Below, one piece after another: positions 2,980 to 16,101 of a stretch of DNA of 21,603 nt. This DNA comes from a virus: positions 9,038 through 30,640 of IMG/VR virus record IMGVR_UViG_3300030118_002654; one strand, 5' to 3'. The notes beneath the pieces are model-generated. The model had not been told where the DNA came from and did no database searches. It worked only from the letters and a program-made list of their open reading frames with translations. Numbering within the stretch: the first letter of the stretch is position 1; each line of letters opens with the position of its first letter. The position numbers and the translations under genes are program-made.

Positions 2980-3003
2980 AGGAAGTGGCTTATGCCACCT
3001 CCT
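2980..3003 (-). other. Hairpin spanning the stop codon of the ArdC-like gene
   Basis: On the minus strand, AGGAGGTGGC and GCCACTTCCT form a 10-pair stem with one G-U pair and a four-base ATAA loop that contains the TAA stop. No T-run follows, so it is not a standard terminator. It could shield the mRNA 3' end, tune readthrough into the small genes downstream, or hide the strong AGGAGG it contains. Confidence 0.5.
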
Positions 3004-3874
3004 TATCTTCTAGTTGTTGTTTTTCTAAGAAGTCAATAGACTTCTGTGCTTGTGAAAATGCCCTAACCATTGCTTTTGAATCTTCTTTTATGAGTGAAAT
3101 CCAAGAGTTGAGATATTTAGCGTGATTCTCCCTAACAGTTTTCTCTACACCGAGAATTCTGCAAAGAAAAGCTGAACCAACTTCAGCAACTAATTCTTCT
3201 TTTGCATAATCTCTAATAGAATTACCTTGTAGGTCTCTATTACATCTGCTCTTATGACCAGTCCAATGTGTGAGTTCATGTAATAATGTAGAGTAATAAT
3301 CAACATCTGTATCAAAATCAGTCTTATTCGGCATACCAATGTAATCTCTTATTGGTGAGTAAAATGCTTGTGATTCGTCATGAAATATTTTTGCTTCTGT
3401 ATTGGCTACGAAAAGATCTACTGACTTTGATTTGCTTTCTGTAAGTTCTACTGAATGGACATTAGGTATAATATCAGATACAAAATCTTCTACTTGATCT
3501 CCGTTAAATACTGCATAATTTTTCCATAAAAAGTATTTAGGTAATTTGCCTGTGGATTTATAAAGAGCGAGTTCGTCATCTTTAAGCCATTCAGGTTTTT
3601 TATCTTTTACTTCACAGAAAACTACTCTGCTTGCTTTACTGCCTTTTTTGATTTGATAGCCTTTTTCTGACCATTGTTTGAAAGTAGCCCATTCGTGAGA
3701 TCTAAAATCTTGCACTGATAACCAAAAGCTATTCATACCTCTGTAAGGTTTTTTGCTTATATGGTTGATAGGTGCAGGTTTTGAAGTCCAAGGTTTGTGC
3801 CAATCAGTACCTTCTTTTTGCATAAGGTCTACAATCTTGTCTTGGATTTGTTCTAGTATTTCTTGTGTTTTCAT
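2990..3874 (-). CDS. ArdC-like antirestriction / ssDNA-binding protein with metallopeptidase domain
   Basis: A 294-residue protein with the two-part ArdC architecture. The N-terminal half (about 1-135) has family-typical PWTSKPAPINHISKKPYRGMN, GYQIKKGSKA and an aromatic region ending YAVFNGDQV, and is associated with binding single-stranded DNA. The C-terminal half has a zinc peptidase motif HELTH (His199, Glu200, His203), continuing WTGHKSR, and a following EELVAE helix (about 226-231) that would give the third zinc ligand. Plasmid ArdC protects entering DNA from restriction. In a phage, protection of incoming DNA or a replication role is the likely use, but this is inferred. It has its own copy of the repeated 19-base element and a roughly 80-base leader, so it may be transcribed separately from the block upstream. 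Confidence 0.88.
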   Translation of the reverse strand: MKTQEILEQIQDKIVDLMQKEGTDWHKPWTSKPAPINHISKKPYRGMNSFWLSVQDFRSHEWATFKQWSEKGYQIKKGSKASRVVFCEVKDKKPEWLKDDELALYKSTGKLPKYFLWKNYAVFNGDQVEDFVSDIIPNVHSVELTESKSKSVDLFVANTEAKIFHDESQAFYSPIRDYIGMPNKTDFDTDVDYYSTLLHELTHWTGHKSRCNRDLQGNSIRDYAKEELVAEVGSAFLCRILGVEKTVRENHAKYLNSWISLIKEDSKAMVRAFSQAQKSIDFLEKQQLEDKEVA

Positions 3875-3924: not shown

Positions 3925-3956
3925 AATATATAATTTTATATTGTTGTCAGAAAAAG

Positions 3957-3975
3957 TAAACCTTTTTTGGAATAA
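3957..3975 (-). promoter_or_regulatory. Copy A of the repeated 19-base promoter/operator element
   Basis: The minus strand reads TTATTCCAAAAAAGGTTTA, in the short gap between the HNH gene stop and the ArdC-like gene, pointing toward the latter. A TATAAA box follows GGTTTA after 16 bases, so the right part of the element sits where a -35 box would be. See the finding on the six copies. Confidence 0.65.
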
Positions 3976-3978
3976 TAT

Positions 3979-4278
3979 TTAATCTTTTTTTACCATAGAA
4001 TTAACCAGTTCAAGTAGTTCATACTCCGTACCATAGGCTTTTTCAAACCTAGCTTTGTATGGGTGACGACTTATAGGTTCCATATCACTACCCATTCTAT
4101 GATGCTCAAAGCATAAAGGCAGTACCTTAAAATGCGTATCAGGTTTTGTCTTGCCTTCAATATGGTGTATCTCTGCAGGAACTCCATAAAAGCCTTGTAA
4201 ATAACAAACAATACAACCTAGTTGACTAACCCTATCCATGTGTTTTTTTTCCTTAGAGTTAGGGTTTCTGCCTTTCAC
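3979..4278 (-). CDS. Ref-like HNH-type nuclease
   Basis: A 99-residue protein with the zinc and HNH-like pattern of the phage P1 Ref / DUF968 group. It has Cys22 and Cys25 (GCIVC), His38-His39 (EIHHIEG), then LPLCFEHHRMG with Cys56 and His59-His60. P1 Ref is a RecA-dependent DNA endonuclease, so a recombination-linked nicking or cutting role fits the neighbours (ERF, PD-(D/E)XK nuclease, GIY-YIG). The start is GTG at 4276-4278, overlapping the previous stop as GTGA. I keep it rather than the ATG at 4239 because the residues before that ATG (RNPNSKEKKHMDRV) look like the family's conserved N-terminus. It is shorter than P1 Ref and covers mainly the catalytic core. Confidence 0.82.
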   Translation of the reverse strand: MKGRNPNSKEKKHMDRVSQLGCIVCYLQGFYGVPAEIHHIEGKTKPDTHFKVLPLCFEHHRMGSDMEPISRHPYKARFEKAYGTEYELLELVNSMVKKD

Positions 4279-4730
4279 TTGTGTTTGTTATATATAGGTT
4301 GGTATCTTTCTATTAAAATCTTTTCCCAATATAGTTTTCTATCTTCTCTACAATGTAAGTATCTTACTCTATCAAATTTTTTATCTCTTATATGGCTATT
4401 TAATCTGTTATAAATATTTTTGGTTTGACCTACATATACAATGACATCTTCGTTATAAAGTACGTAAACACAATCTCTTATAATCTGATCAATGTAAAAG
4501 TCTTTTCTTACTTTACATCCACCTTCATATTTGTGTTTATATTTTGGTTTTTTTTCTATATATGCAGGTCTTGTTATTCCTGTTCCATACGAAACAGGCT
4601 CTAAAAAACCTTCGTTATTTGTAGCACAGTAAACGTACAACTTATCCCTATCCAAATCTGTAGCAAGTTTCATGCTCTTATTAAAATGATTTATATGGTC
4701 GTGCAGACGTAATATTAAATTATGCTCCAT
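4275..4730 (-). CDS. GIY-YIG nuclease-domain protein
   Basis: A 151-residue protein with a GIY-YIG nuclease domain at its C-terminal end, about residues 86-149. It has VYV (88-90) in place of GIY, YVG (99-101) followed by QTKN, the catalytic-type Arg109 in NIYNRLNSH, and the likely metal-binding Glu136 in YWEKILIERYQPIYN. The N-terminal 85 residues are not recognised and are basic near the middle. Such enzymes make single- or double-strand DNA cuts, as homing endonucleases or repair/junction nucleases. There is no intron or interrupted gene nearby, so homing is not indicated. The ATG at 4728-4730 has AGAGGA upstream; an in-frame start at 4790 would overlap the coiled-coil gene by about 70 bases. 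Confidence 0.85.
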   Translation of the reverse strand: MEHNLILRLHDHINHFNKSMKLATDLDRDKLYVYCATNNEGFLEPVSYGTGITRPAYIEKKPKYKHKYEGGCKVRKDFYIDQIIRDCVYVLYNEDVIVYVGQTKNIYNRLNSHIRDKKFDRVRYLHCREDRKLYWEKILIERYQPIYNKHK

Positions 4731-5058
4731 ATCTTTTTCTTTCCTCTCTAGCATTAACCATTTTGGTACGCCATTCTTCAAACCCAACATCTAATGATTT
4801 AAGTTCTATTTTTAGAGCAGATAAAGTGCCTTTTGCTACACCTTCTTTTAATCTAGCTTCATATAATTCATCACTATTATCTGCATAAGTCTTTTGGGCA
4901 GATATTGTTTTTACACCTTGAGACGTAGCCACCAATTCCAACTTTGCCTGTAGTTTCTTTATGTCAGCTTGTGATTTTAAAAGATTGTATTCTGCTTGCT
5001 GTATTTGTGGCGCCAGATCTCTAATCTTTTGTTGCCAAGATTCTACTTGTTCGTTCAT
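4720..5058 (-). CDS. Coiled-coil protein of unknown function
   Basis: A 112-residue, almost wholly helical protein with heptad-like patterns in residues 1-45 (QKIRDLAPQIQQAEYNLLKS) and again in 65-105. No enzyme motif is present. It lies between the SSB-tail protein and the GIY-YIG gene, with a two-base gap upstream and an 11-base overlap downstream, so it belongs to the recombination block and may be a scaffold or accessory factor there. That role is inferred from position. Confidence 0.7.
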   Translation of the reverse strand: MNEQVESWQQKIRDLAPQIQQAEYNLLKSQADIKKLQAKLELVATSQGVKTISAQKTYADNSDELYEARLKEGVAKGTLSALKIELKSLDVGFEEWRTKMVNAREERKRYGA

Positions 5059-5060
5059 TT

Positions 5061-5564
5061 TTAAAAGGGTATATCTGCATCAGACTCTGTTTTAGTTTTT
5101 ATAGGTGCATCTTCATCTTCTGGTGTCAGCTTGATGCTTGTATAAGAAGTGCCTTTTTCTGAAACATTTGCCCAACCGCCAAGTTTATAGACTTTTTCTG
5201 TCGTAACCTTTTCTAACGCATCTTGTAAACTTGTTTTTATATCACTTACATTTTGACCAATTTGTATACTTTCTATTGCATTTTTTATTGGATTTAAGTC
5301 AACTTCTGGTAAAGTTATTTTACCGCCAATATCAGGTGTACCTTCTTTAATTTTTTTCTCAGGCGGGTTGTAGTGCAATAATCCAAGAGAAACACAAAAC
5401 TCATATTTGTCTTTTTCTGTACCAGTATATTTTAAAATTGCGCCATATTTTTCCTCAGCCTTAGTACCCCACATCATTTTACATTTACCTTTTCTTGGCA
5501 CAGTCACTTTATTTTCAGTAAAAAAGTTTCCTCTGTTTTCTTTTAGTTCATATTTGTCAGACAT
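5061..5564 (-). CDS. Probable ssDNA-binding or recombination accessory protein with SSB-like acidic tail
   Basis: A 167-residue protein that ends in ESDADIPF, which closely matches the acidic DDDIPF tip that bacterial SSB uses to recruit repair proteins. Before the tail, YKLGGWANVSEKGTSYTSIK (about 125-145) looks like an OB-type beta hairpin of the kind seen in small phage proteins of the DUF736 sort. The N-terminus (YELKENRGNFFTENK) also resembles those proteins. The middle is not recognised. A single-strand DNA-binding role next to the ERF annealing protein is a good fit but unproven. The ATG has GGAG eight bases upstream and overlaps the previous gene by eight bases. Confidence 0.7.
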   Translation of the reverse strand: MSDKYELKENRGNFFTENKVTVPRKGKCKMMWGTKAEEKYGAILKYTGTEKDKYEFCVSLGLLHYNPPEKKIKEGTPDIGGKITLPEVDLNPIKNAIESIQIGQNVSDIKTSLQDALEKVTTEKVYKLGGWANVSEKGTSYTSIKLTPEDEDAPIKTKTESDADIPF

Positions 5565-5829
5565 TATTTTCTCCAGTTATTAATCGGTATTGATTACCTT
5601 TTTTATTTAGTATTTTTTTTCTAATGACTATTTCTCCGTTTAAAGGTAGTCCGTATTTTTTTCTTTGTTCAAACTTACGTAGTTCCCTAATAGATGCGCT
5701 TATGGTGGGCTCTCCGTAGAATTTACCAACATTAATTTTTATAATGTCCTGTAGTTCCCAAAAAGTCCACCATTGACCATCACGCATGGCTAGGTAAACG
5801 TAGTCCGTTACACTATTAGGTTTGCTCAT
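5557..5829 (-). CDS. Small winged-helix-like protein
   Basis: A 90-residue basic protein. Residues 5-60 read like a helix-turn-helix with wing: VTDYVYLAMRDGQWWTFWEL, then TISASIRELRKFE as a possible recognition helix, then EIVIRKKILNKKGNQYRLI as the wing strands. Similar small proteins occur in phage recombination and replication blocks. It could bind DNA as a regulator or accessory factor. It overlaps the ERF gene by 14 bases and the SSB-tail gene by eight, so it is part of the same operon. Confidence 0.65.
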   Translation of the reverse strand: MSKPNSVTDYVYLAMRDGQWWTFWELQDIIKINVGKFYGEPTISASIRELRKFEQRKKYGLPLNGEIVIRKKILNKKGNQYRLITGENNV

Positions 5830-6424
5830 ATACTTCTATAAGTCTTTCGTAACCTTCTTGGTATTTCAGAACTTTTGTAAGTTTTTTTGCTTTGTATATC
5901 TCTTTTGCGTTAATCTCATATAGATTTTTTGCATCTGTATCAGGATTTTCTGCAGGCAGATATTTTCCAAGTGATGTTATATATTTGGTAGGATCTCTTT
6001 CTTCTATAAGGATTTTACCTTCAACATCTTTGAAATAAAAAGTTGTAGTGGCTTTTTCTGCATCATCATCTTCTTCTACAGTAGCTAGACCACAAGCCAT
6101 TTGTAATGAGTACCTCTTTGCATAACTGAGCGCAGAACCGTAAGCCTGTGGATCAGTCTTAGGTGAAGGCATGTGCACTTTGCCTGTAGACAACTCTCCA
6201 CCATGACCAAAAAATACAGTTTCTACGACTGCGCCTGTATCAGATTCATGGCTTATTTGTTGTATATGTATGCCTTGATCTGCATAAGGTTGCTTAACAG
6301 TATCTAATACCTGTTTTAAAGAAGCATATTTGCTTTTAAAAAATGGGTTATCAGAATCATTTACTATGTGACTTAGATTTTCAGTTGCCTTAATCATGGC
6401 ATTTATTAACGCTTGGTTATTCAT
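5816..6424 (-). CDS. ERF-family single-strand annealing protein
   Basis: A 202-residue recombinase of the ERF superfamily, the group named after the P22 Erf protein. The hallmark blocks are present: NPFFKSKYASLKQVLDTVK (about 25-44), GAVVETVFFGHGGE, and the strongest one, DPQAYGSALSYAKRYSLQM followed by ACGLATVEEDDDAE. These proteins form rings on single-stranded DNA and promote annealing for phage recombination and end repair. The start is the ATG at 6422-6424 with GGAG nine bases upstream. An in-frame start at 6505 would overlap the nuclease gene heavily. The C-terminal 60 residues are variable. It directly follows a PD-(D/E)XK nuclease gene, the classic exonuclease/annealase pair. Confidence 0.92.
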   Translation of the reverse strand: MNNQALINAMIKATENLSHIVNDSDNPFFKSKYASLKQVLDTVKQPYADQGIHIQQISHESDTGAVVETVFFGHGGELSTGKVHMPSPKTDPQAYGSALSYAKRYSLQMACGLATVEEDDDAEKATTTFYFKDVEGKILIEERDPTKYITSLGKYLPAENPDTDAKNLYEINAKEIYKAKKLTKVLKYQEGYERLIEVYEQT

Positions 6425-6425
6425 T

Positions 6426-7217
6426 TTATATTCTCCATATTTGCTTAGCGAAATTGATTTCATCTTCCCCCCATTTCCAATCGTCAATGTTGGGATAGCA
6501 ACCATTTGCTAATTCATATTTATCATTTGAGTAGGACAAAAATTGCATAATTGAATATGCTATTTGCTCTACAGTTTCTATGTGTTTCTGTACATTTCTT
6601 ACAGTATGTGAAACTACCTTTTGGTCTTTGGCAGTCACGACAATGTAGTCAAGTATAGGAACACAATTCATAGCTTGCGCATAGACAGAAACCTGTCTTG
6701 CATGACCTTCAAATACTTTAGAAGGTGTTCTAGCAGTTGTCTTAATATCTCGTATAGTGTCACCATATTGGAGATCTATGAAGCCTATAATAGGCACAGG
6801 CAGATCAGGCAACTGTAACTCTATCTTCTTTTGATAATCTGTTGGTTGACCTAGATCGTCATAGAAATCTAATGCAGTTTTAAAATATCTTTGCAGTTTA
6901 GTTTTTTCCTCAAGATATTTATCAAGATTGATTTCTTGTTTAGGATAATTATATTCACATTCAGCTTTATATCCTGTGTACTGTGATTCTACAAGATGTA
7001 AGGACTGTTCTTCTGAATGTGGAGTTTCTTCATATCCAAAGTAAGCACCAATACCACGATCTACTGCACTTCCTCTCCACATGGCAGGACCACCACCATT
7101 TTTATAACCAAAAAGATAACGCATTATCCACATGGCTTTATCATCTAAGAATGAATTTATAGACGAGGGTGATAGATGTTCTATGCCGTGAACATCAAAC
7201 GGATTATTGCTATTCAT
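6426..7217 (-). CDS. PD-(D/E)XK exonuclease, RecB/Cas4-like
   Basis: A 263-residue nuclease. The catalytic core is visible: FIDLQYGDTIRDIKTTARTP gives Asp148 and the Asp157-Ile-Lys159 (D-x-K) motif, and RQVSVYAQAM gives the Q-x3-Y motif (Gln175, Tyr179) typical of RecB/Cas4-type nucleases. An RGSAVDRGI segment near residue 48 corresponds to the family's RG-x-x-x-H helix, with Asp where His is usual. No iron-sulfur cysteine cluster of the Cas4 kind is seen. It likely resects DNA ends so that the adjacent ERF protein can anneal the strands. The ATG at 7215-7217 overlaps the preceding stop (ATGA) and has no ribosome site of its own, so translation is probably coupled. Confidence 0.87.
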   Translation of the reverse strand: MNSNNPFDVHGIEHLSPSSINSFLDDKAMWIMRYLFGYKNGGGPAMWRGSAVDRGIGAYFGYEETPHSEEQSLHLVESQYTGYKAECEYNYPKQEINLDKYLEEKTKLQRYFKTALDFYDDLGQPTDYQKKIELQLPDLPVPIIGFIDLQYGDTIRDIKTTARTPSKVFEGHARQVSVYAQAMNCVPILDYIVVTAKDQKVVSHTVRNVQKHIETVEQIAYSIMQFLSYSNDKYELANGCYPNIDDWKWGEDEINFAKQIWRI

Positions 7218-7429
7218 TTTATTGTTGGAATAGTGCCAACAGCAAAGACATTGCACTGATTGGTTTGCTCTATAAAATCTATTAACTCTTGTTGTGATTT
7301 TTTAGACCAAAAATGTGGCCAATAATCAGTTATATCTTTGTAAACTTCATCACTTGTAAATCCTAAATTTAGTAGCTGAACTACTCTATCTACAATTTTA
7401 GTTTCATGTGTAATTTTAGGTTTTTTCAT
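7214..7429 (-). CDS. Small basic protein of unknown function
   Basis: A 71-residue protein starting MKKPKITHETKIVDRVVQLL, with a helical segment GFTSDEVYKDITDYWPHFW that could be a small helical DNA-binding fold, though I cannot assign a family. The ATG at 7427-7429 has the block's standard initiation region (GGAGAAATAAA). A copy of the repeated 19-base element lies 30 bases upstream, so this gene probably leads the recombination operon. A longer frame reaches back to 7516 but would override both signals. Confidence 0.65.
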   Translation of the reverse strand: MKKPKITHETKIVDRVVQLLNLGFTSDEVYKDITDYWPHFWSKKSQQELIDFIEQTNQCNVFAVGTIPTIK

Positions 7430-7458
7430 TTTATTTCTCCAATTTAGATTAACAATTA

Positions 7459-7477
7459 TAAACCTTTTATGGAATAA
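7459..7477 (-). promoter_or_regulatory. Copy D of the repeated 19-base promoter/operator element
   Basis: The minus strand reads TTATTCCATAAAAGGTTTA, followed at once by a TATAAT-like stretch (GTTTATAATTG). It points toward the small gene that leads the recombination operon, whose ATG is 30 bases downstream. It begins just after the stop of the preceding gene (7483). Confidence 0.65.
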
Positions 7478-7482
7478 GTATA

Positions 7483-7824
7483 TTAATCTGTTAAAGGTTT
7501 GAAGCCGTCCATCCAAGTAATCTTTTTTGGCTTAATATGTTCTCTAGCTTCTTCTTCTGTCATAAGACCACTAGCAACTTGACTTTCTACAAATTCTTCC
7601 GAATGTATATATTCAGTTTCTAGTTCTTCTACCCTTTTAAATGCGTCTTTTTTAAACTGAAATGCCTGTATAAACATAAAGCTATAATACAGATGTCCGT
7701 CATCTTTTTTTTGTAAGTAATTTTCATTGAGATACAATTCATACTTATCTATGTGACCTTTGGTTACCAAATAAGTACCTCTTGCGCCTCTAAAAGTTTC
7801 ACCTCGTTTAGTTAAGTTTTTCAT
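7483..7824 (-). CDS. Protein of unknown function
   Basis: A 113-residue alpha/beta protein. The first half is rich in aromatic residues (GTYLVTKGHIDKYELYLNEN, LYYSFMFIQAFQFKKDAF), and the second half is an acidic helix pair (SQVASGLMTEEEAREHIKP). No family is recognised. The ATG at 7822-7824 follows AGGAGAAAGTAAA. It is the first gene of the minus-strand block, is transcribed divergently from the Cro-like regulator, and has a copy of the 19-base element in the shared gap, so it is likely an early and regulated gene. Confidence 0.7.
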   Translation of the reverse strand: MKNLTKRGETFRGARGTYLVTKGHIDKYELYLNENYLQKKDDGHLYYSFMFIQAFQFKKDAFKRVEELETEYIHSEEFVESQVASGLMTEEEAREHIKPKKITWMDGFKPLTD

Positions 7825-7847
7825 TTTACTTTCTCCTATTTATTAGT

Positions 7848-7876
7848 TTGTAATTAAAAACTAAGTCCACTATAAT
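7848..7876 (+). promoter_or_regulatory. Predicted sigma70-type promoter of the Cro-like regulator
   Basis: TTGTAA (7848-7853) and TATAAT (7871-7876) are separated by exactly 17 bases. The predicted start of transcription is near 7883, about 20 bases before the ATG at 7904. The repeated 19-base element (7873-7891) overlaps the -10 box and the start point, a placement that would let a bound protein block this promoter. Confidence 0.6.
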
Positions 7877-7891
7877 TCATATTTGGAATAA
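7873..7891 (-). promoter_or_regulatory. Copy E of the repeated 19-base promoter/operator element
   Basis: The minus strand reads TTATTCCAAATATGAATTA, the most divergent right half among the copies. It points toward the minus-strand gene at 7824 and overlaps the -10 box and start point of the divergent regulator promoter. It could therefore serve one gene and repress the other. Confidence 0.55.
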
Positions 7892-7903
7892 TTAAAACAA
7901 ATT

Positions 7904-8107
7904 ATGCAGTTAAAAGAATATTTAAAATCTAACAACTATACACAAATGTCTTTTATACAAGAGATAGAAACTCAAAGAAATGTGCGTATACCGCAAGGCA
8001 CTTTAGCAAAGTGGATAACAGGTGTAAGAATACCAAGAAAAAAAGAAATGATTTTATTGGTTGAGGTTACAGATGGCAAAGTACAACCAAATGATTTTTA
8101 TATGTAA
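7904..8107 (+). CDS. Cro-like helix-turn-helix regulator
   Basis: A 67-residue protein with a small lambda-repressor-like DNA-binding domain. It has LKEYLKSNNYTQMSFIQEIE as helices 1-2 and GTLAKWITGVRIPRKKEMIL as the recognition helix and following helix, ending DGKVQPNDFYM, as in Cro/CI-type regulators where the last helix is followed by a short tail. It has no peptidase or dimerisation domain of the CI kind, so it resembles Cro or a small operon repressor. The ATG at 7904 has no clear Shine-Dalgarno site. The gene starts the plus-strand sugar/modification operon and lies next to a copy of the repeated element, so it is the best local candidate for binding it. Confidence 0.75.
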   Translation: MQLKEYLKSNNYTQMSFIQEIETQRNVRIPQGTLAKWITGVRIPRKKEMILLVEVTDGKVQPNDFYM

Positions 8108-8505
8108 TGAAGATAGGTTTTACTTGTGGTGCCTTTGATCTATTGCATGCAGGTCACGTAGTTATGCTAAAAGAGTGTAAGGAAAATTGTGAATATTTGA
8201 TTGTAGGTTTGCAAACTGACCCAACACTTGATAGAAAAGAAAAAAATAAACCAGTTCAATCTATGTATGAAAGGTATATGCAGTTACAAGCTATTAAGTA
8301 CGTTGATGAAATAATTCCTTACGACACAGAAGATAGCTTGGTAGATTTGCTTGAATCCACACCTATCAATATAAGGTTTATTGGCGAGGATTATAAAAAT
8401 ATTAGCTTTACTGGCGAGGGTTTGCATAAAACTTTTTACACAAGCAGACGTCATACATTTTCAACAACATCACTCAGAGAAAGAGTACAAAAACAGGATA
8501 TATAA
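8107..8505 (+). CDS. Cytidylyltransferase-like nucleotidyltransferase (TagD/RfaE-C type)
   Basis: A 132-residue enzyme of the HxGH nucleotidyltransferase superfamily. FTCGAFDLLHAGHVVML contains the nucleotide-binding HAGH (His14, His17). RYMQLQAIKYVDEIIPY (56-72) and STTSLRER (119-126) match the R-x3-L-x4-YVDE and [IF]STT-x2-R blocks of glycerol-3-phosphate cytidylyltransferase and related enzymes. These join CTP (or ATP in some relatives) to an alcohol or sugar phosphate, releasing pyrophosphate. The length equals that of TagD. The substrate cannot be read. In this operon it sits just before a glycosyltransferase and an epimerase, so making an activated sugar or polyol for that pathway is likely. 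The ATG overlaps the regulator stop (TAATG). Confidence 0.87.
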   Translation: MKIGFTCGAFDLLHAGHVVMLKECKENCEYLIVGLQTDPTLDRKEKNKPVQSMYERYMQLQAIKYVDEIIPYDTEDSLVDLLESTPINIRFIGEDYKNISFTGEGLHKTFYTSRRHTFSTTSLRERVQKQDI

Positions 8506-9117
8506 ATGGAAACACAAAATATAGATATAGAAAAATTAAGTCCATATAAAAACAATGCTAGAAAGCATACCGAGCAACAAATACAACAAATTGCTAATTC
8601 CATAGTTGAGTTTGGTTTTGTAAATCCAATTCTTATAGATGAAAACCAAATGATTCTTGCTGGTCACGGCAGATATATGGCGGCACGCTATTTGCAATTA
8701 CCTGAGGTGCCTATTATTGAAATTAAAGACCTAACAGATGCACAAAAGAAAGCATTTGTTATAGCCGATAATAAAATAGCCAATAATTCAACGTGGGACG
8801 AAACAGTGCTTTGGCAAGAAATACAAGAATTAAACAAACTTGGTTTTGATCTAAATATATTGGCTTTTAATGAAATGGAGATCTTGCCTATTACTGATCC
8901 TAATGTTGTAGATGATCCTTTAGCAGAGTGGGAAAATATGCCTGAATTTATATCAGAGGACAATACTGCTCATAGAACATTGTATGTACATTTTAATAAT
9001 GAAGAAGAAGTTCAAAAGTTTGCAGAATTGGTAGGTCAACAGATAACTGATAAAACCAAATACATCTGGTACCCTGAACAAACAAACATGAACACCGAAA
9101 GTAAAAGGTATGAATGA
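8506..9117 (+). CDS. ParB/Srx-fold nuclease-like protein
   Basis: A 203-residue protein with an N-terminal ParB-like domain, about residues 3-95. IDIEKLSPYKNNARKHTEQQ, then FGFVNPILID, then ILAGHGRYMAARYL with the signature GHGR (53-56), followed by KKAFVIADNKIAN. After an acidic linker, a second small domain (about 145-195) has LYVHFNNEEEVQKFAELVGQ and KYIWYPEQ, a combination I know from phage ParB-like proteins near terminases and DNA modification genes. It does not have the helix-turn-helix part of a partition ParB, so plasmid-type partition is unlikely. Phage members have been discussed as nucleases, NTPases or DNA-modification helpers. Its place between the cytidylyltransferase and the glycosyltransferase supports a DNA-linked role. 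Confidence 0.85.
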   Translation: METQNIDIEKLSPYKNNARKHTEQQIQQIANSIVEFGFVNPILIDENQMILAGHGRYMAARYLQLPEVPIIEIKDLTDAQKKAFVIADNKIANNSTWDETVLWQEIQELNKLGFDLNILAFNEMEILPITDPNVVDDPLAEWENMPEFISEDNTAHRTLYVHFNNEEEVQKFAELVGQQITDKTKYIWYPEQTNMNTESKRYE

Positions 9118-10759
9118 TCCTAAATTTCCACTTTATATACCAAGCAAAGGTAGATATGAATCAAGATTAACTTCTAAATGGCTTGATAAAATAAATCTAC
9201 CTTACAAGTTGGTTGTTGAGCCAGATGAGTATGATTTATACGCTAATCAAGTATCTGAAGATAAATTATTGGTTCTTGATATGTCTTACAAGGACAAATA
9301 CGAGTATTGCGATGATTTTGGAACAGAGAGGCCAACAGGAAGTGGTCCTGCAAGGAACTTTATATGGGATCATTCTGTAAGTCAGGGGCATAAATATCAT
9401 TGGATAATGGACGACAATATACGGTCTTTTAGACGTATGAATAAAAATGAAAAGATAAAGGTCAACAATGGTTCTATGTTTGCCGCAATGGAAGATTTTG
9501 TATTGCGCTATAAAAACGTGGCTATGGCAGGACCTCATTATACTTTTTTTAGATCTGCGCGAAGTTCAAGTCCTCCGTTTACTCTTAACTCAAGAGTATA
9601 TTCCTGCAATTTAATTAAAAATGACGTACCTTTTAGATGGAGAGGCAGATATAACGAAGATACGATTTTATCTTTAGATATGCTTAAACAAAATTGGTGC
9701 ACTATTCTTTTTAATGCTTTTTTACAAGAAAAAATGACCACACAAACAGTTAAAGGTGGTAATACAGACACCATTTATGTTGATGGAACTTTAGATAAAT
9801 CACAAATGTTGGTAAATGTTCATCCTGATGTATCTGAACTTAAATGGCGATATGGAAGATGGCATCATTCTGTTGATTACAAAGTTTTTAAAACAAAGCT
9901 TGTAAGACAGGACGATCATAAAGTTACAAAAGGGATTAATAATTTTGGAATGAATTTAGTTGTAAAAAAAAATGAAACTTTGGATTTTGGTATAAACATT
10001 GAAGGCTTTATAGAATCTTGTACTAAATATATAGACGTAGAAAAGAAAAAATTAAGAGATGAAATTGATATCAGTATTAAACAGTTTCGTAAGCAGGAAA
10101 AAGATATAGGTGAACTTGGTCGTTTAGAAAAAATTTGGTATGACTCACTAAATGACAAGATTGATTATTCAGTTTATGCGGATGATTTTTACTTTGCAGA
10201 AGTATGGAAGTGTTGGATTTTGTACTCAAGAAAATATCTCAAAGATATACAAAAACCAAATTCACTTTTTGACAAAAGCATTTACAAAGATATGTCTAAT
10301 GTGGATTCAGTTTTGGATCTCGGTTGCGGTATGGGCTATACAACAGCTTTTCTAAAAAAGTTATTTTCAGATGCAAAAGTTATAGGTACAAATCTTGAAA
10401 ATACATTACAGTTTAAATTGGCAAGTCAACTTGGTACTACTTACGATTTTAAAATTATGGAAGATCTACCAGACAGCAATATGGATTTAATTTTTGCTTC
10501 TGAGTATTTTGAGCATATAGAAAGACCGATTGAACATTTAAAAGAAGTTTTAGAAAAAAACAAACCAACACATCTTTTAGTTGCAAATACATTTAACCAA
10601 CCTGCTATTGGTCATTTCATTAACTATAAAGATGGCAGTGATGTTCTTAATGGAAAGGAAACATCTAAAAGATTTAATGAAACACTAAAAAATTACGGTT
10701 ACAAAAAAATTAAAACTAAATTATGGAACCAAAGACCTAATTATTGGAAATTTCAATGA
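9110..10759 (+). CDS. TET-associated-type glycosyltransferase fused to a class I SAM methyltransferase
   Basis: A 549-residue two-domain enzyme. Residues 1-285 match the glycosyltransferase family found beside TET/JBP base oxygenases in phages (TAGT, GT-A fold): LYIPSKGRYESRLTSKWL, VVEPDEYDLY, SGPARNFIWDHS, HWIMDDNIRSF with a DDN metal site (101-103), RWRGRYNEDTILSLDML, KGGNTDTIY and YGRWHHSVDYKVF. A helical linker (290-395) follows. Residues 398-549 are a Rossmann methyltransferase with motif I VLDLGCGMGY (Asp403-Gly409) and IFASEYFEHIERP after motif II. By family, the first half transfers a sugar from a nucleotide sugar, in known contexts onto modified DNA bases. The second half could methylate the sugar or the base. 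The gene overlaps the ParB-like gene by eight bases and the epimerase start by four (ATGA), so the products are made together. Confidence 0.85.
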   Translation: MNDPKFPLYIPSKGRYESRLTSKWLDKINLPYKLVVEPDEYDLYANQVSEDKLLVLDMSYKDKYEYCDDFGTERPTGSGPARNFIWDHSVSQGHKYHWIMDDNIRSFRRMNKNEKIKVNNGSMFAAMEDFVLRYKNVAMAGPHYTFFRSARSSSPPFTLNSRVYSCNLIKNDVPFRWRGRYNEDTILSLDMLKQNWCTILFNAFLQEKMTTQTVKGGNTDTIYVDGTLDKSQMLVNVHPDVSELKWRYGRWHHSVDYKVFKTKLVRQDDHKVTKGINNFGMNLVVKKNETLDFGINIEGFIESCTKYIDVEKKKLRDEIDISIKQFRKQEKDIGELGRLEKIWYDSLNDKIDYSVYADDFYFAEVWKCWILYSRKYLKDIQKPNSLFDKSIYKDMSNVDSVLDLGCGMGYTTAFLKKLFSDAKVIGTNLENTLQFKLASQLGTTYDFKIMEDLPDSNMDLIFASEYFEHIERPIEHLKEVLEKNKPTHLLVANTFNQPAIGHFINYKDGSDVLNGKETSKRFNETLKNYGYKKIKTKLWNQRPNYWKFQ

Positions 10760-11595
10760 GAATACTTGTAACAGGTGGCTGTGGGTTCATAGGTAAAAAC
10801 CTTATAAATAATTTGGTGGATAAACATTCTGTAATGTGTCTTGATAACAATTTAACAAGCACAATGGAAGACACTGTTGCAGGTTGCGAATATATCTATG
10901 GCAATACAAAAGACTGCATGATGCTTTCACATAATAATTTTGACCTTATCTATCATTTAGGAGAATACTCTAGGGTAGAAAGAAGTTTTGAAGATATAGA
11001 TATTGTGTTTGAGAATAATTGGAATTCTATTTACCAAGTTCTAAAACTAACTAAATATTGTAATGCAAAACTTGTATATGCAGGTTCAAGTACGAAGTTT
11101 GGCGATAATGATACCAACTATAAAGAAAGTCCTTATGCATTTACTAAATACTGTAATGCAGAACTTGTAAAAACATATTGTGATTGGCATAACCTAAGAT
11201 ATGCCATTACATATTTTTATAATGTGTATGGTGAAGGAGAGATAGATAATGGTCCTTATGCAACTGTAATAGGTAAATTTTTAAAAGCAAAAAAAGAAGG
11301 CAAAAAAGTTGATATTACTGGTGATGGAAAACAAGTTAGAAATTTCACACACATAGAGGATATTGTAGATGCACTTATGATTGTTGCCGAAAAAGGACAA
11401 GGTGATAGATTTGGTATTGGTAGTGATGTTTCATACAGCATTATACAAGTTGCAGAGTTGCTTGACCTTGATTACAGATTTACACCTGATCGCAGAGGAA
11501 ACAGAAAAATATCTAGCCTTATAACTAAAAATACAAGAGATTTAGGGTGGAAACCTAAAAAAGACTTACAAAATTATTTAAAAAAAGTGCGTTGA
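10756..11595 (+). CDS. NAD-dependent sugar-nucleotide epimerase/dehydratase (extended SDR)
   Basis: A 279-residue extended short-chain dehydrogenase/reductase. The NAD site is VTGGCGFIG (G-x2-G-x2-G, residues 5-13). The catalytic pair is Tyr127 and Lys131 in SPYAFTKY, with the partner serine/threonine in AGSSTKFG (110-116). Further family blocks are FYNVYGEGE and VRNFTHIEDIVDAL. It most resembles UDP-glucose 4-epimerase/UDP-glucuronate epimerase-type enzymes, but the exact sugar cannot be decided by eye. It is slightly shorter than typical GalE (about 330 residues). I start it at the ATG at 10756, overlapping the previous stop as ATGA; a TTG 12 bases earlier is not needed. It would process the nucleotide sugar used by the glycosyltransferase upstream. 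Confidence 0.88.
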   Translation: MRILVTGGCGFIGKNLINNLVDKHSVMCLDNNLTSTMEDTVAGCEYIYGNTKDCMMLSHNNFDLIYHLGEYSRVERSFEDIDIVFENNWNSIYQVLKLTKYCNAKLVYAGSSTKFGDNDTNYKESPYAFTKYCNAELVKTYCDWHNLRYAITYFYNVYGEGEIDNGPYATVIGKFLKAKKEGKKVDITGDGKQVRNFTHIEDIVDALMIVAEKGQGDRFGIGSDVSYSIIQVAELLDLDYRFTPDRRGNRKISSLITKNTRDLGWKPKKDLQNYLKKVR

Positions 11596-11596
11596 A

Positions 11597-11615
11597 ATAT
11601 TCCAAAAAAGGTTTC
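11597..11615 (+). promoter_or_regulatory. Copy B of the repeated 19-base element, with TATAAT downstream
   Basis: The plus strand reads ATATTCCAAAAAAGGTTTC, starting right at the end of the epimerase gene and pointing toward the gene at 11694. TATAAT lies at 11634-11639, 18 bases after GGTTTC, so this copy looks like a promoter with the element covering the -35 region. The leader that follows resembles that of the ArdC-like gene. Confidence 0.65.
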
Positions 11616-11693
11616 TTTTTTTTTAAAACAATGTATAATTATTACTTATAGAGGTTAATTAAAACTTCTTTAAATTGAAAAAAGGAAAATAAA

Positions 11694-11945
11694 ATGAAAG
11701 AAAAAATATTACAAGAACAATCAAAAGAAAGTTTTGAAGAATATATAACCAAGAAAAATAAGTCAGACCTTTTTTGCACAGGTCAAGTATTCTATGAAGA
11801 TGGTACTGTAGGAACTACATACCATAACGATAGCGGCTTGATTGGATTATGGCATGATAGATACTGTTACATAATACCCGAACACCTTCAAAAAAGAAGC
11901 AGTTCAGAGAAAAAATCTACAATAGCTTCATTAAACAGGTCATAA
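11694..11945 (+). CDS. Small protein of unknown function
   Basis: An 83-residue protein. The middle is a likely beta-rich unit (DLFCTGQVFYEDGTVGTTYH, then HDRYCYIIPEHLQ) and the tail is Ser/Lys-rich. No family is recognised. The ATG is preceded by AAAGGAAAATAAA, nearly the same initiation region as the ArdC-like gene on the other strand. It leads the short operon before the replication genes and has its own promoter-like element. Confidence 0.7.
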   Translation: MKEKILQEQSKESFEEYITKKNKSDLFCTGQVFYEDGTVGTTYHNDSGLIGLWHDRYCYIIPEHLQKRSSSEKKSTIASLNRS

Positions 11946-11947
11946 TT

Positions 11948-12103
11948 ATGGAAAATATAAAAGCACAAACTGTTAAAGTAGAACTTACATTACACGAACT
12001 AGTAACCCTTGGAGTAATGGTAGAAAAACAACTAATTCAAACCAAAGATGTTTATGAAAAAGAACATTTTATGGAAATCAATAACAAACTTAATCTTCTT
12101 TAA
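11948..12103 (+). CDS. Very small protein of unknown function
   Basis: A 51-residue protein starting MENIKAQTVKVELTLHELVT, with two likely helices and no membrane segment. It begins two bases after the previous stop, and its own stop TAA touches the next copy of the 19-base element. The pattern VELTLHELVTLGVMVEKQL resembles short phage proteins of the host-takeover type, but no family can be named. No clear ribosome site is visible, so it may be coupled to the gene before it. Confidence 0.55.
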   Translation: MENIKAQTVKVELTLHELVTLGVMVEKQLIQTKDVYEKEHFMEINNKLNLL

Positions 12104-12121
12104 TATTCCAAAAAAGGTTTA
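12103..12121 (+). promoter_or_regulatory. Copy C of the repeated 19-base promoter/operator element
   Basis: The plus strand reads ATATTCCAAAAAAGGTTTA, pointing toward the replication gene at 12171. A TATATT box follows GGTTTA after 16 bases, compatible with a -35/-10 layout. The 17 central bases are identical to copy B. Confidence 0.65.
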
Positions 12122-12170
12122 TTAATTTTATATTTGATATATTATCTCTTTTAATTGTAAAGGAGATAAT

Positions 12171-12809
12171 ATGTCAATAGAATTTGTAAATAAAGTAAAA
12201 AAGCTACAAGGCTTAAAACCCACAGAAAAATATATTCTACACATCATGGCAGACTATGCTGATGAAAAGGGTAGTTGTTACCCCTCACACAGTCATATTG
12301 CACAAATAGTTGGCTTGCAGACAACTAAAAGCGTAAAGGTAGCCATAAAAAAGTTTGTTGATCTCGGCTTGGTTATTGTAAAACATAGAAGAAACGAAAA
12401 TGGAGGTTGTACAAGTAACAGATACTTTTTAAATCCAAATATGGTCACAGATTACCCTAGGGTCCTAGAGGTAACCACCCCTAGTACCTCCAAGACCTAC
12501 AATACTAAAGAAAATACTAAAGATATATATGGTGAAAAGTTTGAGATCTTTTGGAGAATATATCCAAGAAAGATTGCAAAGAAATCTGCATATAAGTCTT
12601 GGTCAAAGTTTGATGAAAAACATTATGACAAGATTCTTTATGGCGCACAGAGATTCGCCGAACAAAGCCAAAAAACAGAAGAAAAATATATTCCACATGC
12701 AACTACTTGGTTGAACCAAGAAAGGTGGTTAGATTTCTTTGAAACAGATAAATATGGTTGTGTAATAAAAGCAAAACCACAAAAGAAAATCAATAATTTA
12801 GCGGGATAA
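12171..12809 (+). CDS. Replication initiator-like protein with N-terminal winged helix
   Basis: A 212-residue protein. Residues 1-90 form a winged-helix domain of the type found in phage replication O-like proteins: LKPTEKYILHIMADYADEKG, CYPSHSHIAQIVGLQT, and VKVAIKKFVDLGLVIVKHRR. A Thr/Ser-rich linker (about 105-120) follows. The C-terminal part (EIFWRIYPRKIAKKSAYKSW, then YIPHATTWLNQERW) is a well-known block in phage replication proteins. It probably recognises the phage origin and brings in the helicase encoded just downstream. The ATG has AAAGGAG upstream. The gap to the primase-helicase is four bases. No iteron-like repeat was recognised by eye inside the gene, so the origin is not located. 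Confidence 0.8.
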   Translation: MSIEFVNKVKKLQGLKPTEKYILHIMADYADEKGSCYPSHSHIAQIVGLQTTKSVKVAIKKFVDLGLVIVKHRRNENGGCTSNRYFLNPNMVTDYPRVLEVTTPSTSKTYNTKENTKDIYGEKFEIFWRIYPRKIAKKSAYKSWSKFDEKHYDKILYGAQRFAEQSQKTEEKYIPHATTWLNQERWLDFFETDKYGCVIKAKPQKKINNLAG

Positions 12810-12813
12810 AGAA

Positions 12814-14511
12814 ATGAATAAAAGACCAGAAGAATATGGAATAAGGTTAAGATCACAAGAACATGGCTCACAAAAAATTAAATGTCCAGAGTGTCAGCCA
12901 CCACACAACCCTAGAGATAATCCACTTACTGTTACAATAAACTCTGAAGGTACGGTATGGTTTTGTCACCATTGTGAATGGAGAGGCAGTTATTTTGAGA
13001 AAGGCATGACACCTTTTTCTTTACCAAAGCAAACGTATACAAGACCAACCAAACCTATTGAAAACAGTACAGACAAGATGTACAAATTCTTTAAAAGGAG
13101 AGGTATATCTAAAACAGTAGTTGATAAATTCAAAATATTTGATGAAAAAGGTTGGTTTGGTTTTCAGTATTTTAATGAGAATAGTGAACTAGAAAATATT
13201 AAGTATAGAACCGCAGACAAAGGTTTTAAGCAAACAAAAGGAGCCAAACAGATACTTTATAACTACGATAATATTTATAAGAAAAAATCTATAGTATTTG
13301 TAGAAGGAGAAATGGATGTACTGTCTTGCGAAATGGTTGGATATGATGCAACTACATTACCAAACGGAGCACCAAAGGAAGCAAAGTTTAATGAGAATGA
13401 TGCAAGATTTAAGGCATTACAAAACTGTCCGCTAGAAGCTACCAAAATAATTATATTTACCGATACAGATAGTGCTGGCAGAGCCTTACACAAGGAACTT
13501 TTACATAGATTTGGAAAGGATATATCTTGGTTCGTTCGTTTACCAGAAGGATGTAAGGACGCAAATGATGTTCTTATGAAGCATGGCGATGTAAAGTTAA
13601 AAGAAATCTTAGAGAATGCAGAGCCTTATCCTGTGGATGGTTTATATACAGCTAATGATTACTATGGCAAATTACATGATCTTTATAACGGTAATTATGA
13701 AAAGCCATTAGAAATAGGAATACAAGGCTTAGATGATATATACAAGATTATGACTGGTACATTTCATACAATAACAGGTATACCAAACCATGGTAAGTCT
13801 TTATTTTTAGACCAAATACTTATAACTTTGGCAGAAAATCACGATTGGAAGTTTGCAATATTTTCACCAGAGCATAGTACAGAGTTCCACATAAGAAGAA
13901 TGGCGCAAATGTACACACAAAAAAGTTTTGATGAAGGCTTTGCAAGCAGAATGACAGAGCAAGAATTAAATACTGCCATAGACTTTATACATAAACATTT
14001 CTTTTTTATAGAAACAAAAGACCATGTACCAAGCATTGACCATATACTATCTATAACCAAGAGCAGTATATTTAAGCACGGCATAAATGGTTTGGTTATT
14101 GATCCGTTTAATGAGGTGAGCGCCAAGAGATCTGGTAATACAAGAGAAGATGAGCACATACGTGACTTTATATCTTTATGTAAAAGATTTAGTCGTATAT
14201 ACGAGATTGTTACGTGGATAGTTGCACATCCTACTAAACTACAGAAAGGGACAGACGGAAACTATGCACCACCCTCAGCATACGATATAAGCGGTGCGGC
14301 ACATTGGCATAATATGGCTGACGCAGTTCTTACAGTACATAGAGATTTTGACACAAGTACAACTAACGTAATAACAAGAAAGATAAGAGAGCAAGACTTA
14401 TATGGCAAGATTGGAGAAGCTACATTTCAGTACAACTTTGACAAACATAGATTCTTACCATTTAAGAAAAATAATGTATCTGATTGGGGTGGAGTTAATT
14501 TTAATGATTAG
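12814..14511 (+). CDS. Bifunctional DNA primase-helicase (T7 gp4/Twinkle-like)
   Basis: A 565-residue replication enzyme with all parts in order. The zinc-binding domain has Cys24, Cys27, Cys51 and Cys54 (KCPECQPP and WFCHHCEWRG). The TOPRIM primase domain has VFVEGEMDVL (Glu164) and IIIFTDTDSAGRALHKEL (Asp217, Asp219). The DnaB/RecA-like helicase domain has Walker A GIPNHGKS (322-329), Walker B GLVIDPFNE (Asp430) and the sensor-like WIVAHPTK. It should unwind DNA at the fork and make RNA primers. The length matches T7 gp4 (566 residues). It is the last gene before the terminator at 14583-14608 and pairs with the initiator-like gene four bases upstream. Confidence 0.94.
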   Translation: MNKRPEEYGIRLRSQEHGSQKIKCPECQPPHNPRDNPLTVTINSEGTVWFCHHCEWRGSYFEKGMTPFSLPKQTYTRPTKPIENSTDKMYKFFKRRGISKTVVDKFKIFDEKGWFGFQYFNENSELENIKYRTADKGFKQTKGAKQILYNYDNIYKKKSIVFVEGEMDVLSCEMVGYDATTLPNGAPKEAKFNENDARFKALQNCPLEATKIIIFTDTDSAGRALHKELLHRFGKDISWFVRLPEGCKDANDVLMKHGDVKLKEILENAEPYPVDGLYTANDYYGKLHDLYNGNYEKPLEIGIQGLDDIYKIMTGTFHTITGIPNHGKSLFLDQILITLAENHDWKFAIFSPEHSTEFHIRRMAQMYTQKSFDEGFASRMTEQELNTAIDFIHKHFFFIETKDHVPSIDHILSITKSSIFKHGINGLVIDPFNEVSAKRSGNTREDEHIRDFISLCKRFSRIYEIVTWIVAHPTKLQKGTDGNYAPPSAYDISGAAHWHNMADAVLTVHRDFDTSTTNVITRKIREQDLYGKIGEATFQYNFDKHRFLPFKKNNVSDWGGVNFND

Positions 14512-14513
14512 TG

Positions 14514-14610
14514 TATAATGTAACTACAGATAGTTCACTCAATCTGCAAGTTAATAAAATAAAATGAAAGTTATTAAAAATTAAAGGGGAATTCCGTAGT
14601 TCCCCTTTTC
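14514..14610 (+). ncRNA. Possible small transcript ending at the terminator
   Basis: TATAAT at 14514-14519, just after the primase-helicase stop, and the strong terminator at 14583-14608 would bound an RNA of about 85 bases. Inside are a small stem (CAGAT with ATCTG, 10-base loop) and a six-codon reading frame (MKVIKN) behind an ATAAAATAAA stretch. No convincing -35 box is present, so this may only be the 3' end of the operon mRNA. Confidence 0.25.
14583..14608 (+). terminator. Strong, probably bidirectional intrinsic terminator
   Basis: AAAGGGGAA and TTCCCCTTT form a perfect nine-pair stem around an eight-base loop (TTCCGTAG), followed on the plus strand by TTCTATTATTT. It lies between two converging genes, the primase-helicase and the UDP-sugar dehydrogenase, and the A-rich side serves as a weaker T-run for the minus strand. 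It separates the replication operon from the sugar dehydrogenase unit. Confidence 0.88.
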
Positions 14611-14612
14611 TA

Positions 14613-15443
14613 TTATTTAAAACGTATTTTATTTATTTTCTCTCTTTCGTCTAATTTGTATTGTTTTCTTATATTATTGTTAATATCTAATACAGTTTGC
14701 AGAAGAGACATATTATCTTGTGAAAATTTAAGAAAGGCTAAAGTGTCTTTTGGTAGACAAGCACCACCAAAACCACGTTTTAGATCATAACCTGGCACTT
14801 TTGTATGACTTGACCCTATACGTTTATCTAAAGTGACACCTTTCATAACAGAGTTGTAAGAACAGTTATTGTCTTGGCAAAGATCATATAACTGGTTGAA
14901 GAAAGAAACTTTGGTAGCAAGAAAAGAATTACAAGCATACTTAATAAAAGATGCTTCTTGCGGTGTAACAATTACATAATGTAATGCTTCACACATTGAA
15001 TATCGTTTGTATAGATTAATTAGCTTATCAGAGGCACTATAATTACCGCCCATTATATGGTATTCGGCACTAACAAATTCTTCATTCGCTGAGCGTTCAG
15101 TAAGAAATTCTGGATTATAAATTATATTAGGGTTGTTGTGACTTGTTATAAGATCTCCAACAATATCTGGTGTCACAGTAGATTTAATAACTATTAAATC
15201 TGTGTTGGTCTTTTGTACAAGATAGTTGACTGTTTCTCTTACTATAGAGGCATCTACAAAACCTGTCTCTGCATTTGTTGGTGTAGGTACAGTAACAAAA
15301 ACCACATCATGTGGAGTTTTGCTTAAAATGGATATGTCAGTGTTATAAACTGGATCAATGATTGTTTTCTCTATACTAGGGTGTGTAAATGCAAAGTCTA
15401 CCGCTTTACCAACGAAACCATGTCCGACTATTCCTAATTTCAT
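14613..15443 (-). CDS. UDP-glucose/GDP-mannose dehydrogenase family protein, lacking the C-terminal domain
   Basis: A 276-residue enzyme of the family that oxidises a nucleotide sugar to its uronic acid. The NAD site is GIVGHGFVG (4-12). Active-site blocks are VTVPTPTN, IKSTVTPDIVGD, IYNPEFLTERSA (Glu112), FIKYACNSFLATKVSFFN (Lys168, Asn172) and GFGGACLPKD with the catalytic Cys229. The central helix follows, and the protein ends about 45 residues after the cysteine. Full members have about 390-450 residues with a C-terminal UDP-binding domain, which is absent here. The frame ends cleanly at a stop just before the terminator, so this looks like a stable short form rather than a broken gene. 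It is alone on the minus strand with its own copy of the 19-base element. It is likely part of the same sugar pathway as the epimerase. Confidence 0.87.
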   Translation of the reverse strand: MKLGIVGHGFVGKAVDFAFTHPSIEKTIIDPVYNTDISILSKTPHDVVFVTVPTPTNAETGFVDASIVRETVNYLVQKTNTDLIVIKSTVTPDIVGDLITSHNNPNIIYNPEFLTERSANEEFVSAEYHIMGGNYSASDKLINLYKRYSMCEALHYVIVTPQEASFIKYACNSFLATKVSFFNQLYDLCQDNNCSYNSVMKGVTLDKRIGSSHTKVPGYDLKRGFGGACLPKDTLAFLKFSQDNMSLLQTVLDINNNIRKQYKLDEREKINKIRFK

Positions 15444-15481
15444 GTATAACCTCTGTTATTGATAGAATAATCATACAACAT

Positions 15482-15500
15482 TATTTCCAATTTGGAATGA
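15482..15500 (-). promoter_or_regulatory. Copy F of the repeated 19-base promoter/operator element
   Basis: The minus strand reads TCATTCCAAATTGGAAATA, pointing toward the dehydrogenase at 15443. This copy is nearly palindromic (TTCCAATTTGGAA), so it could also act toward the terminase operon. On the plus strand TTCCAA and TATTAT are 17 bases apart, ahead of the small terminase ATG. It is therefore a possible shared switch between the two directions. Confidence 0.5.
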
Positions 15501-15534: not shown

Positions 15535-16101
15535 ATGGTTAAAAAATCTAAATATGTAAAACTTACTGATGACCTAAAGGGTGAGATTAGAATACTATAT
15601 GTACAAGGTTTTGATGATGAATCAGGTAATAGAAAAACATATACACTAGATGAACTGGCTCTCAAATTCAATATAGCCAAGTCCACACTTTATAGAAACG
15701 CACAGCAAGATAATTGGAAAGCACAGCGTGAACAGTTTCAACAAGAATATTTAATTGGTCTTGATAAGCAAAGACAGAAAGATTTGACAGAAGAATCTAA
15801 AAAGTTTGACACAAATAGCATTAATCTAGCTAAAGCATTATTAACAACGGTAGGTCAAAACTTAGCTAGAAATAACCAAGAATTAAATGAAGGAAAGAAA
15901 GGTATGATACCTAGTCAGCTACACGCATTAGCCAATGCCGCATTATCTGCGCAAAGATTAGCTAAATTAGCACTAGGTGAAGTAACTCATAATGTGGAGA
16001 TAAATGGAAACTTACAAAACAACGCCTTCAGAGAAGCTATGGAACTGCTTGACACAGTTGCAGACAGACGCAGAGAAAGCGACGATCAGCCTGTACACTG
16101 A
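15535..16101 (+). CDS. Probable small terminase subunit
   Basis: A 188-residue protein directly upstream of the large terminase. Residues 35-62 form a helix-turn-helix (TLDELALKFNIAKSTLYRNA, then QDNWKAQREQF), the usual DNA-recognition part of small terminases. The rest is long helices suited to ring assembly, including a segment of alternating Ala/Leu (LHALANAALSAQRLAKLALG). It would recognise phage DNA and stimulate the packaging motor. The call rests on the N-terminal motif plus position. The ATG at 15535 has only a weak GAG upstream. Its 3' end overlaps the annotated large terminase frame by 98 bases. Confidence 0.78.
   Translation: MVKKSKYVKLTDDLKGEIRILYVQGFDDESGNRKTYTLDELALKFNIAKSTLYRNAQQDNWKAQREQFQQEYLIGLDKQRQKDLTEESKKFDTNSINLAKALLTTVGQNLARNNQELNEGKKGMIPSQLHALANAALSAQRLAKLALGEVTHNVEINGNLQNNAFREAMELLDTVADRRRESDDQPVH

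Follow-up and report, generated by a model that had tools for sequence, protein, structure and literature searches.

The window analysed here, a 21,603-nt stretch that forms part of a 30.6-kb IMG/VR viral record, contains six copies of a short element located in front of genes, and we propose that this element probably serves as operator for the Cro-like protein that the phage itself encodes, and that this protein would repress itself and several early promoters. Judged from their sequences, the six copies are best described as variants of one operator, ATTCC-N5-GGAAT. An earlier note on this DNA had suggested a phage-specific promoter class or operator that connects recombination, anti-restriction, replication and sugar genes. 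Our analysis supports a phage-specific operator or promoter element linking the first three of these groups, possibly read by the Cro-like protein; the connection to sugar genes is weaker, as only copy F lies before such a gene (UDP-glucose dehydrogenase) and its link to that gene is putative. The features of the window are as follows.

2990–3874: ArdC-like anti-restriction gene, downstream of copy A
3933–3938, minus strand: TAAAAT, -10 box of the promoter at copy A, 16 nt past TTTACT
3957–3975, minus strand: copy A, class I operator/-35 element TTATTCCAAAAAAGGTTTA, 0 mismatches, upstream of the ArdC-like gene
6426–7217, minus strand: PD-(D/E)XK nuclease (c7; PF12705), a conserved neighbour of the Cro-like gene, transcribed in the direction away from it
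7455–7460, minus strand: putative -10 box TATAAT after copy B, kept in L105
7459–7477, minus strand: copy B, operator TTATTCCATAAAAGGTTTA, centred at about -20, 1 mismatch, kept in L104 and L105
7848–7876, plus strand: predicted promoter of the Cro-like gene (TTGTAA at 7848–7853, 17 nt, TATAAT at 7871–7876), with the same layout in relatives; copy C overlaps its -10 box and start site
7873–7891, minus strand: copy C, a class II operator, intergenic between the Cro-like gene and the oppositely oriented operon
7875–7889, read on the plus strand: palindrome ATTCA-TATTT-GGAAT of copy C; nearly all relatives have one such site
7904–8107, plus strand: Cro-like regulator (c8), 67 aa, a single XRE-type helix-turn-helix (HTH) domain, the proposed reader of the element
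11597–11615, plus strand: copy D, class I element ATATTCCAAAAAAGGTTTC, preceding a small gene (11694–11945), kept in L103, L104 and L106
11634–11639, plus strand: TATAAT, -10 box of the promoter at copy D
12103–12121, plus strand: copy E, class I element ATATTCCAAAAAAGGTTTA, 0 mismatches
12140–12145, plus strand: TATTAT, -10 box of the promoter at copy E
15482–15500, minus strand: copy F, ATTCC-AAATT-GGAAA, a palindromic operator located between the UDP-glucose dehydrogenase gene (14613–15443) and 15535–16101

The sequences of all six copies were confirmed at these positions and strands. When the window was scanned with the strict consensus, allowing up to 3 mismatches, we recovered exactly four copies (A, B, D and E) against 0.10 expected from dinucleotide shuffles, and no more than 2 matches appeared in any of 100 shuffled sequences. 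Copies C and F are too diverged for this consensus test, and the support for both comes from relatives: copy C represents a separate conserved form, with a single site in each phage that precedes the Cro-like gene, and copy F has exact matches in L013 and L015, with a surrounding block that is invariant across a three-way alignment of contigs and flanks that are diverged in L013. The earlier note had seen no copy in coding sequence, and none of A, B, D and E lies inside a real gene; copy B falls within an open reading frame only by way of an upstream TTG start, the plausible ATG being at 7429. The note had also named equally good copies in coding regions, or loss of the element before orthologous genes, as findings that would speak against it. 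Neither was observed, as coding regions of the window and its relatives contain no such copies and the element is kept before orthologous genes in the relatives.

The sites precede the following genes. Copy A precedes the ArdC-like gene and has near-identical promoters in L007, L009 and L026, and an ArdC-like gene is also downstream of the element in G003 and G009. Copy B is followed by a small gene and then by the PD-(D/E)XK nuclease gene and Erf recombination genes. Behind copies D and E are small genes and, downstream of copy E, the replication initiator (12171–12809) and primase-helicase (12814–14511) genes.

Comparison of the copies revealed distinct operator forms that differ in their placement relative to the -10 box. 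The centre described earlier as CC-(A/T)6-GG is more accurately represented by ATTCC-N5-GGAAT, whose right half is modified wherever a -35 box overlaps it. Class I copies (A, D and E) have the sequence ATTCC-N5-[AG]GGTT and lie at about -40, so that the right half runs into the -35 box, and each has a -10 box 16 nt past the -35-like TTTACT. A/T-rich sequence upstream, a C-T-T extension (GGTTTACTT) and a hexamer resembling TATAAT were common to 37 distinct copies from IMG/VR when these were placed in register, and the logo showed the -10 position conserved at 16 nt after TTTACT. A clear TAnnnT at the expected spacing was present in 49 of 66 distinct class I copies, about a quarter being without one. 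Copy B is a class I sequence directly abutted by TATAAT, which places the operator between -35 and -10, and TATAAT abuts the operator in its counterparts in L104 and L105 as well. Class II, represented by copy C (ATTCC-AAATA-TGAAT), occurs once per phage, usually 3–17 bp upstream of the gene for the 67–77 aa Cro-like protein; at about -1.5, it overlaps both the -10 box and the start site of a TTGTMA-N17-TATAAT-like promoter that serves this gene on the opposite strand. The TATA-type box that had been reported 16–18 bases after copies A, B and C exists as described for A and not for B or C; the TATAAT at copy C is part of the Cro-like gene's promoter on the other strand. Copy F forms a near-perfect palindrome. 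Strong -35 boxes are retained in some relatives (TTGACA in L199; TTGTCA in L183).

Other arrangements were observed in the relatives. Three promoters of L187 (near 12, 1012 and 8760) carry an operator, ATCCC-GATTA-GGAAT, inside the promoter at about -30, together with a conserved GTCG before TATAAT. In L111, L112, L125, L127, L129, L135 and others, a class I copy is preceded at 50–51 bp, or roughly five helical turns, by a site of a third form (for example, bases 17579–17597 and 17630–17648 of the L001 contig), a spacing that suggests cooperative binding or looping. Many leaders downstream of class I copies (L003, L010, L017, L022, L032 and L039, for example) contain a small hairpin, with the sequence GCTC-ACA-GAGC or a close variant of it, immediately before the ribosome-binding site.

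The phage lineage that carries the element is uncultured and mostly marine. Exact 18-base matches were present in 46 stretches of IMG/VR viral contigs, almost always before genes. The larger records have about 3–6 copies each, mostly on one strand and before genes, and hardly any occurrence of the reversed pattern was seen. L008 and L030 were excluded from later motif sets, because their exact copies, which have no promoter context, are probable chance matches. A slightly extended pattern gave 5 isolated matches across 257 Gb of genomes from bacteria and archaea, roughly the number expected by chance; as these had no clear -10 box at the phage-type spacing, we ruled out the element as a host regulatory site. 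Among cultured phages, we found no close homologue of the Cro-like protein, only weak or partial matches (best, Mesorhizobium phage vB_MseS-P1 over 37 residues), and the neighbouring nuclease had one weak match. Pelagibacter phage HTVC034P was rejected as a cultured carrier, as its blastn match covers only the A/T-rich downstream stretch. The open-access literature contained no fitting report of a regulon of this kind in marine phages.

The Cro-like protein is a predicted small DNA-binding regulator. It matches PHROG 35 and 2967, the former annotated as a transcriptional repressor (E 1.5e-5), and scores 22.8 bits against Pfam HTH_3, where the cut-off is 23. Its AlphaFold2 model (pLDDT 92) is a compact all-helical HTH fold of five helices, with the HTH formed by helices 14–25 and 31–39. 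The top Foldseek matches were CI N-terminal domains and other XRE proteins, with E-values above 0.05; the closest folds were the N-terminal domain of TP901-1 CI (3zhm) and single-domain regulators of the XRE family, for example SinR and C-proteins (TM-score about 0.7 on the query), which share 16–17% sequence identity with the model and have different partners and operators. The Cro-like proteins of the lineage are 67–77 aa long and have one domain. In nearly all relatives the palindrome overlaps the predicted -10 box and start site of the Cro-like gene promoter, a position in which a bound protein would block it.

To look at the element independently of its own motif, we used the Cro-like protein and the neighbouring nuclease c7 as baits. 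A search of IMG/VR with the Cro-like protein yielded 49 contigs, and at least 10 of 12 palindrome positions were present upstream of the Cro-like gene in 33 of 37 distinct regions (chance about 0.6% per region). The search with the nuclease yielded 80 loci, partly on the same contigs. At a threshold of at least 8 of 10 palindrome positions (chance 4.4% per region), an operator at the own promoter accompanied 59 of 64 distinct cases with a PQ[GS]T-like recognition helix, in contrast to 0 of 12 others (Fisher p 2e-10, uncorrected for relatedness); L204, L132 and the KQATLARY type fell below the palindrome threshold used. Relatives with the helix [ST][IVT]HA[LV]AKW (IHALAKW type) have no ATTCC promoter elements, and in three of them we observed promoters with ACAA-N6-TTGT (ACAT in one copy) followed by TATAAT; L223 and L231 provide examples of ACAA-type promoters. 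The two types of element are mutually exclusive: PQ-type loci (828 kb) contained 80 ATTCC-type and 0 ACAA-type promoters, and IHALAKW-type loci (115 kb) contained 0 and 5, respectively, with 0 in reversed controls, although loci within these sets overlap and the counts are not independent events. The differing residues are located at the beginning of the predicted recognition helix (31–39), the second HTH helix in the AlphaFold2 model. A caveat is that few independent switches underlie the covariation, as the IHALAKW type possibly forms one clade. We consider binding of the element by the Cro-like protein to be strongly supported by these sequence comparisons.

From these observations we propose the following mechanism. 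The Cro-like protein, probably as a dimer, would read two ATTCC half-sites 5 bp apart, a gap that would put one helical turn between the half-site centres. By occupying copy C over the -10 box and start site of its own promoter it would switch itself off, and further operators would lie in early promoters (anti-restriction, recombination and replication), most often at about -40. At most of the dispersed operators the right half-site would double as the -35 box, and this merging would account for both the asymmetric appearance of the element and its constant orientation toward the gene. In the most likely order of events, host sigma-70 RNA polymerase would use the promoters first; the Cro-like protein would then accumulate and occlude them, and expression of the early genes would fall together. 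The element itself, where its copies lie, how it is conserved and how it covaries with the recognition helix are observed, whereas dimer binding, repression, timing and the earliness of the genes are all parts of this model that we infer.

We favour repression for two reasons: the position of the operator relative to the -10 box varies (about -40, -30, -20 and -1.5), and strong -35 boxes accompany it in L199 and L183. Against repression, activators that contact sigma region 4 also bind where the class I operators have their centre, near -40, and the -35 box of many class I copies is weak (TTTACT). The Cro-like protein could thus be a dual regulator that represses its own promoter at copy C and activates the class I promoters (A, D and E) from about -40 through sigma, as lambda CI does at PRM, an alternative that we regard as rather unlikely. 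The class I operators do occupy one fixed place, about -40 from the -10 box, at many promoters, and their overlap with the poor -35 box, about 2 bp, resembles that of the operator and -35 box at lambda OR2/PRM. This fixed place, however, may follow simply from a half-site serving as the -35 box; the strong -35 boxes of L199 and L183, which belong to the same system, speak against it, and activation is hard to picture at copy B and in L187, where the operators lie inside the promoter. Were it correct, a 67-aa single-domain autorepressor that also activates unlinked early operons, in phages with no detectable lysogeny genes, would constitute a one-protein timing switch whose DNA specificity was re-set at least once in the lineage, a picture we put forward only tentatively. 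It is very unlikely, in our judgement, that the element is instead a phage-specific promoter part (an extended -35 or UP-like sequence) read by RNA polymerase, a phage sigma-like protein or a host regulator, with the Cro-like gene as a bystander. The element is A-rich and includes the -35 box, and class I copies look integral to the promoter, but at the Cro-like gene the site overlaps the -10 box and start site rather than the -35 box, and the element covaries with the Cro-like recognition helix. Its near absence from 257 Gb of cellular genomes also speaks against this reading, although the host may be missing from that set.

A further alternative retains the same protein as the reader of the sites and differs from our preferred explanation in lifestyle. 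The protein could be a CI-type immunity repressor of a temperate phage, silencing the prophage through dispersed operators as in phage P1 or mycobacteriophage L5, which we consider quite unlikely. P1 C1 controls unlinked promoters through many dispersed operators, as proposed here, and maintains a plasmid prophage; in our contigs, we found no integration or partition genes, and the Cro-like protein is far smaller. No tyrosine integrase (PF00589) was found in 15 contigs, and neither serine recombinase (PF00239) nor ParA (PF13614) in 20, all of them IMG/VR 'linear' records that may be fragments with an integration gene outside, although several are 45–54 kb long. This lack of integrase, serine recombinase and ParA makes a lytic lifestyle likely. 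Dispersed, transcription-oriented operators are typical of immunity systems, and the L5 stoperators resemble our sites in being multiple, asymmetric, oriented with transcription and located in short intergenic gaps (PMC9283540), as class I copies face the next gene. The L5-type repressor, however, is a two-domain monomer of about 183 aa with some 26 sites, many outside promoters (PMC9283540); here the protein has 67 aa and no second domain, the parent site is palindromic, and the few sites per contig (about 3–7) lie mostly in recognizable promoters. Our preferred reading resembles lambda Cro and related lytic repressors, for example Cro of phiKO2 (PMC4997575), which are likewise small single-domain HTH proteins with an operator in their own control region, and the predicted shut-off of early promoters is also shared with lambda Cro. 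It differs from lambda Cro in that the operators are spread across several operons instead of two control regions and have one half-site fused to the -35 box. Among the genes adjoining the sites, moreover, we noticed no CI-type partner prophage repressor.

This analysis defines a regulator, its operator and a likely early regulon for a whole uncultured phage lineage from sequence alone, and it describes a natural change of specificity between PQ[GS]T helices with ATTCC sites and IHALAKW helices with ACAA sites. The element provides a motif for locating promoters in phages of this lineage, and it prompts one to ask why a dispersed repressor network should be kept by a phage that has no detectable integration genes. 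Sugar-related genes are located between the operator sites (window 8107–11595 and 14613–15443) and encode an HldE-like adenylyltransferase, a glycosyltransferase, a nucleotide-sugar epimerase and the UDP-glucose dehydrogenase. In the portal open reading frame (window 17308–19365), the N-terminal part matches portals, and the C-terminal part (residues 453–682) shares 60% identity with a segment that carries the annotation 'major capsid protein' in Roseobacter phages CRP-831 and CRP-821.
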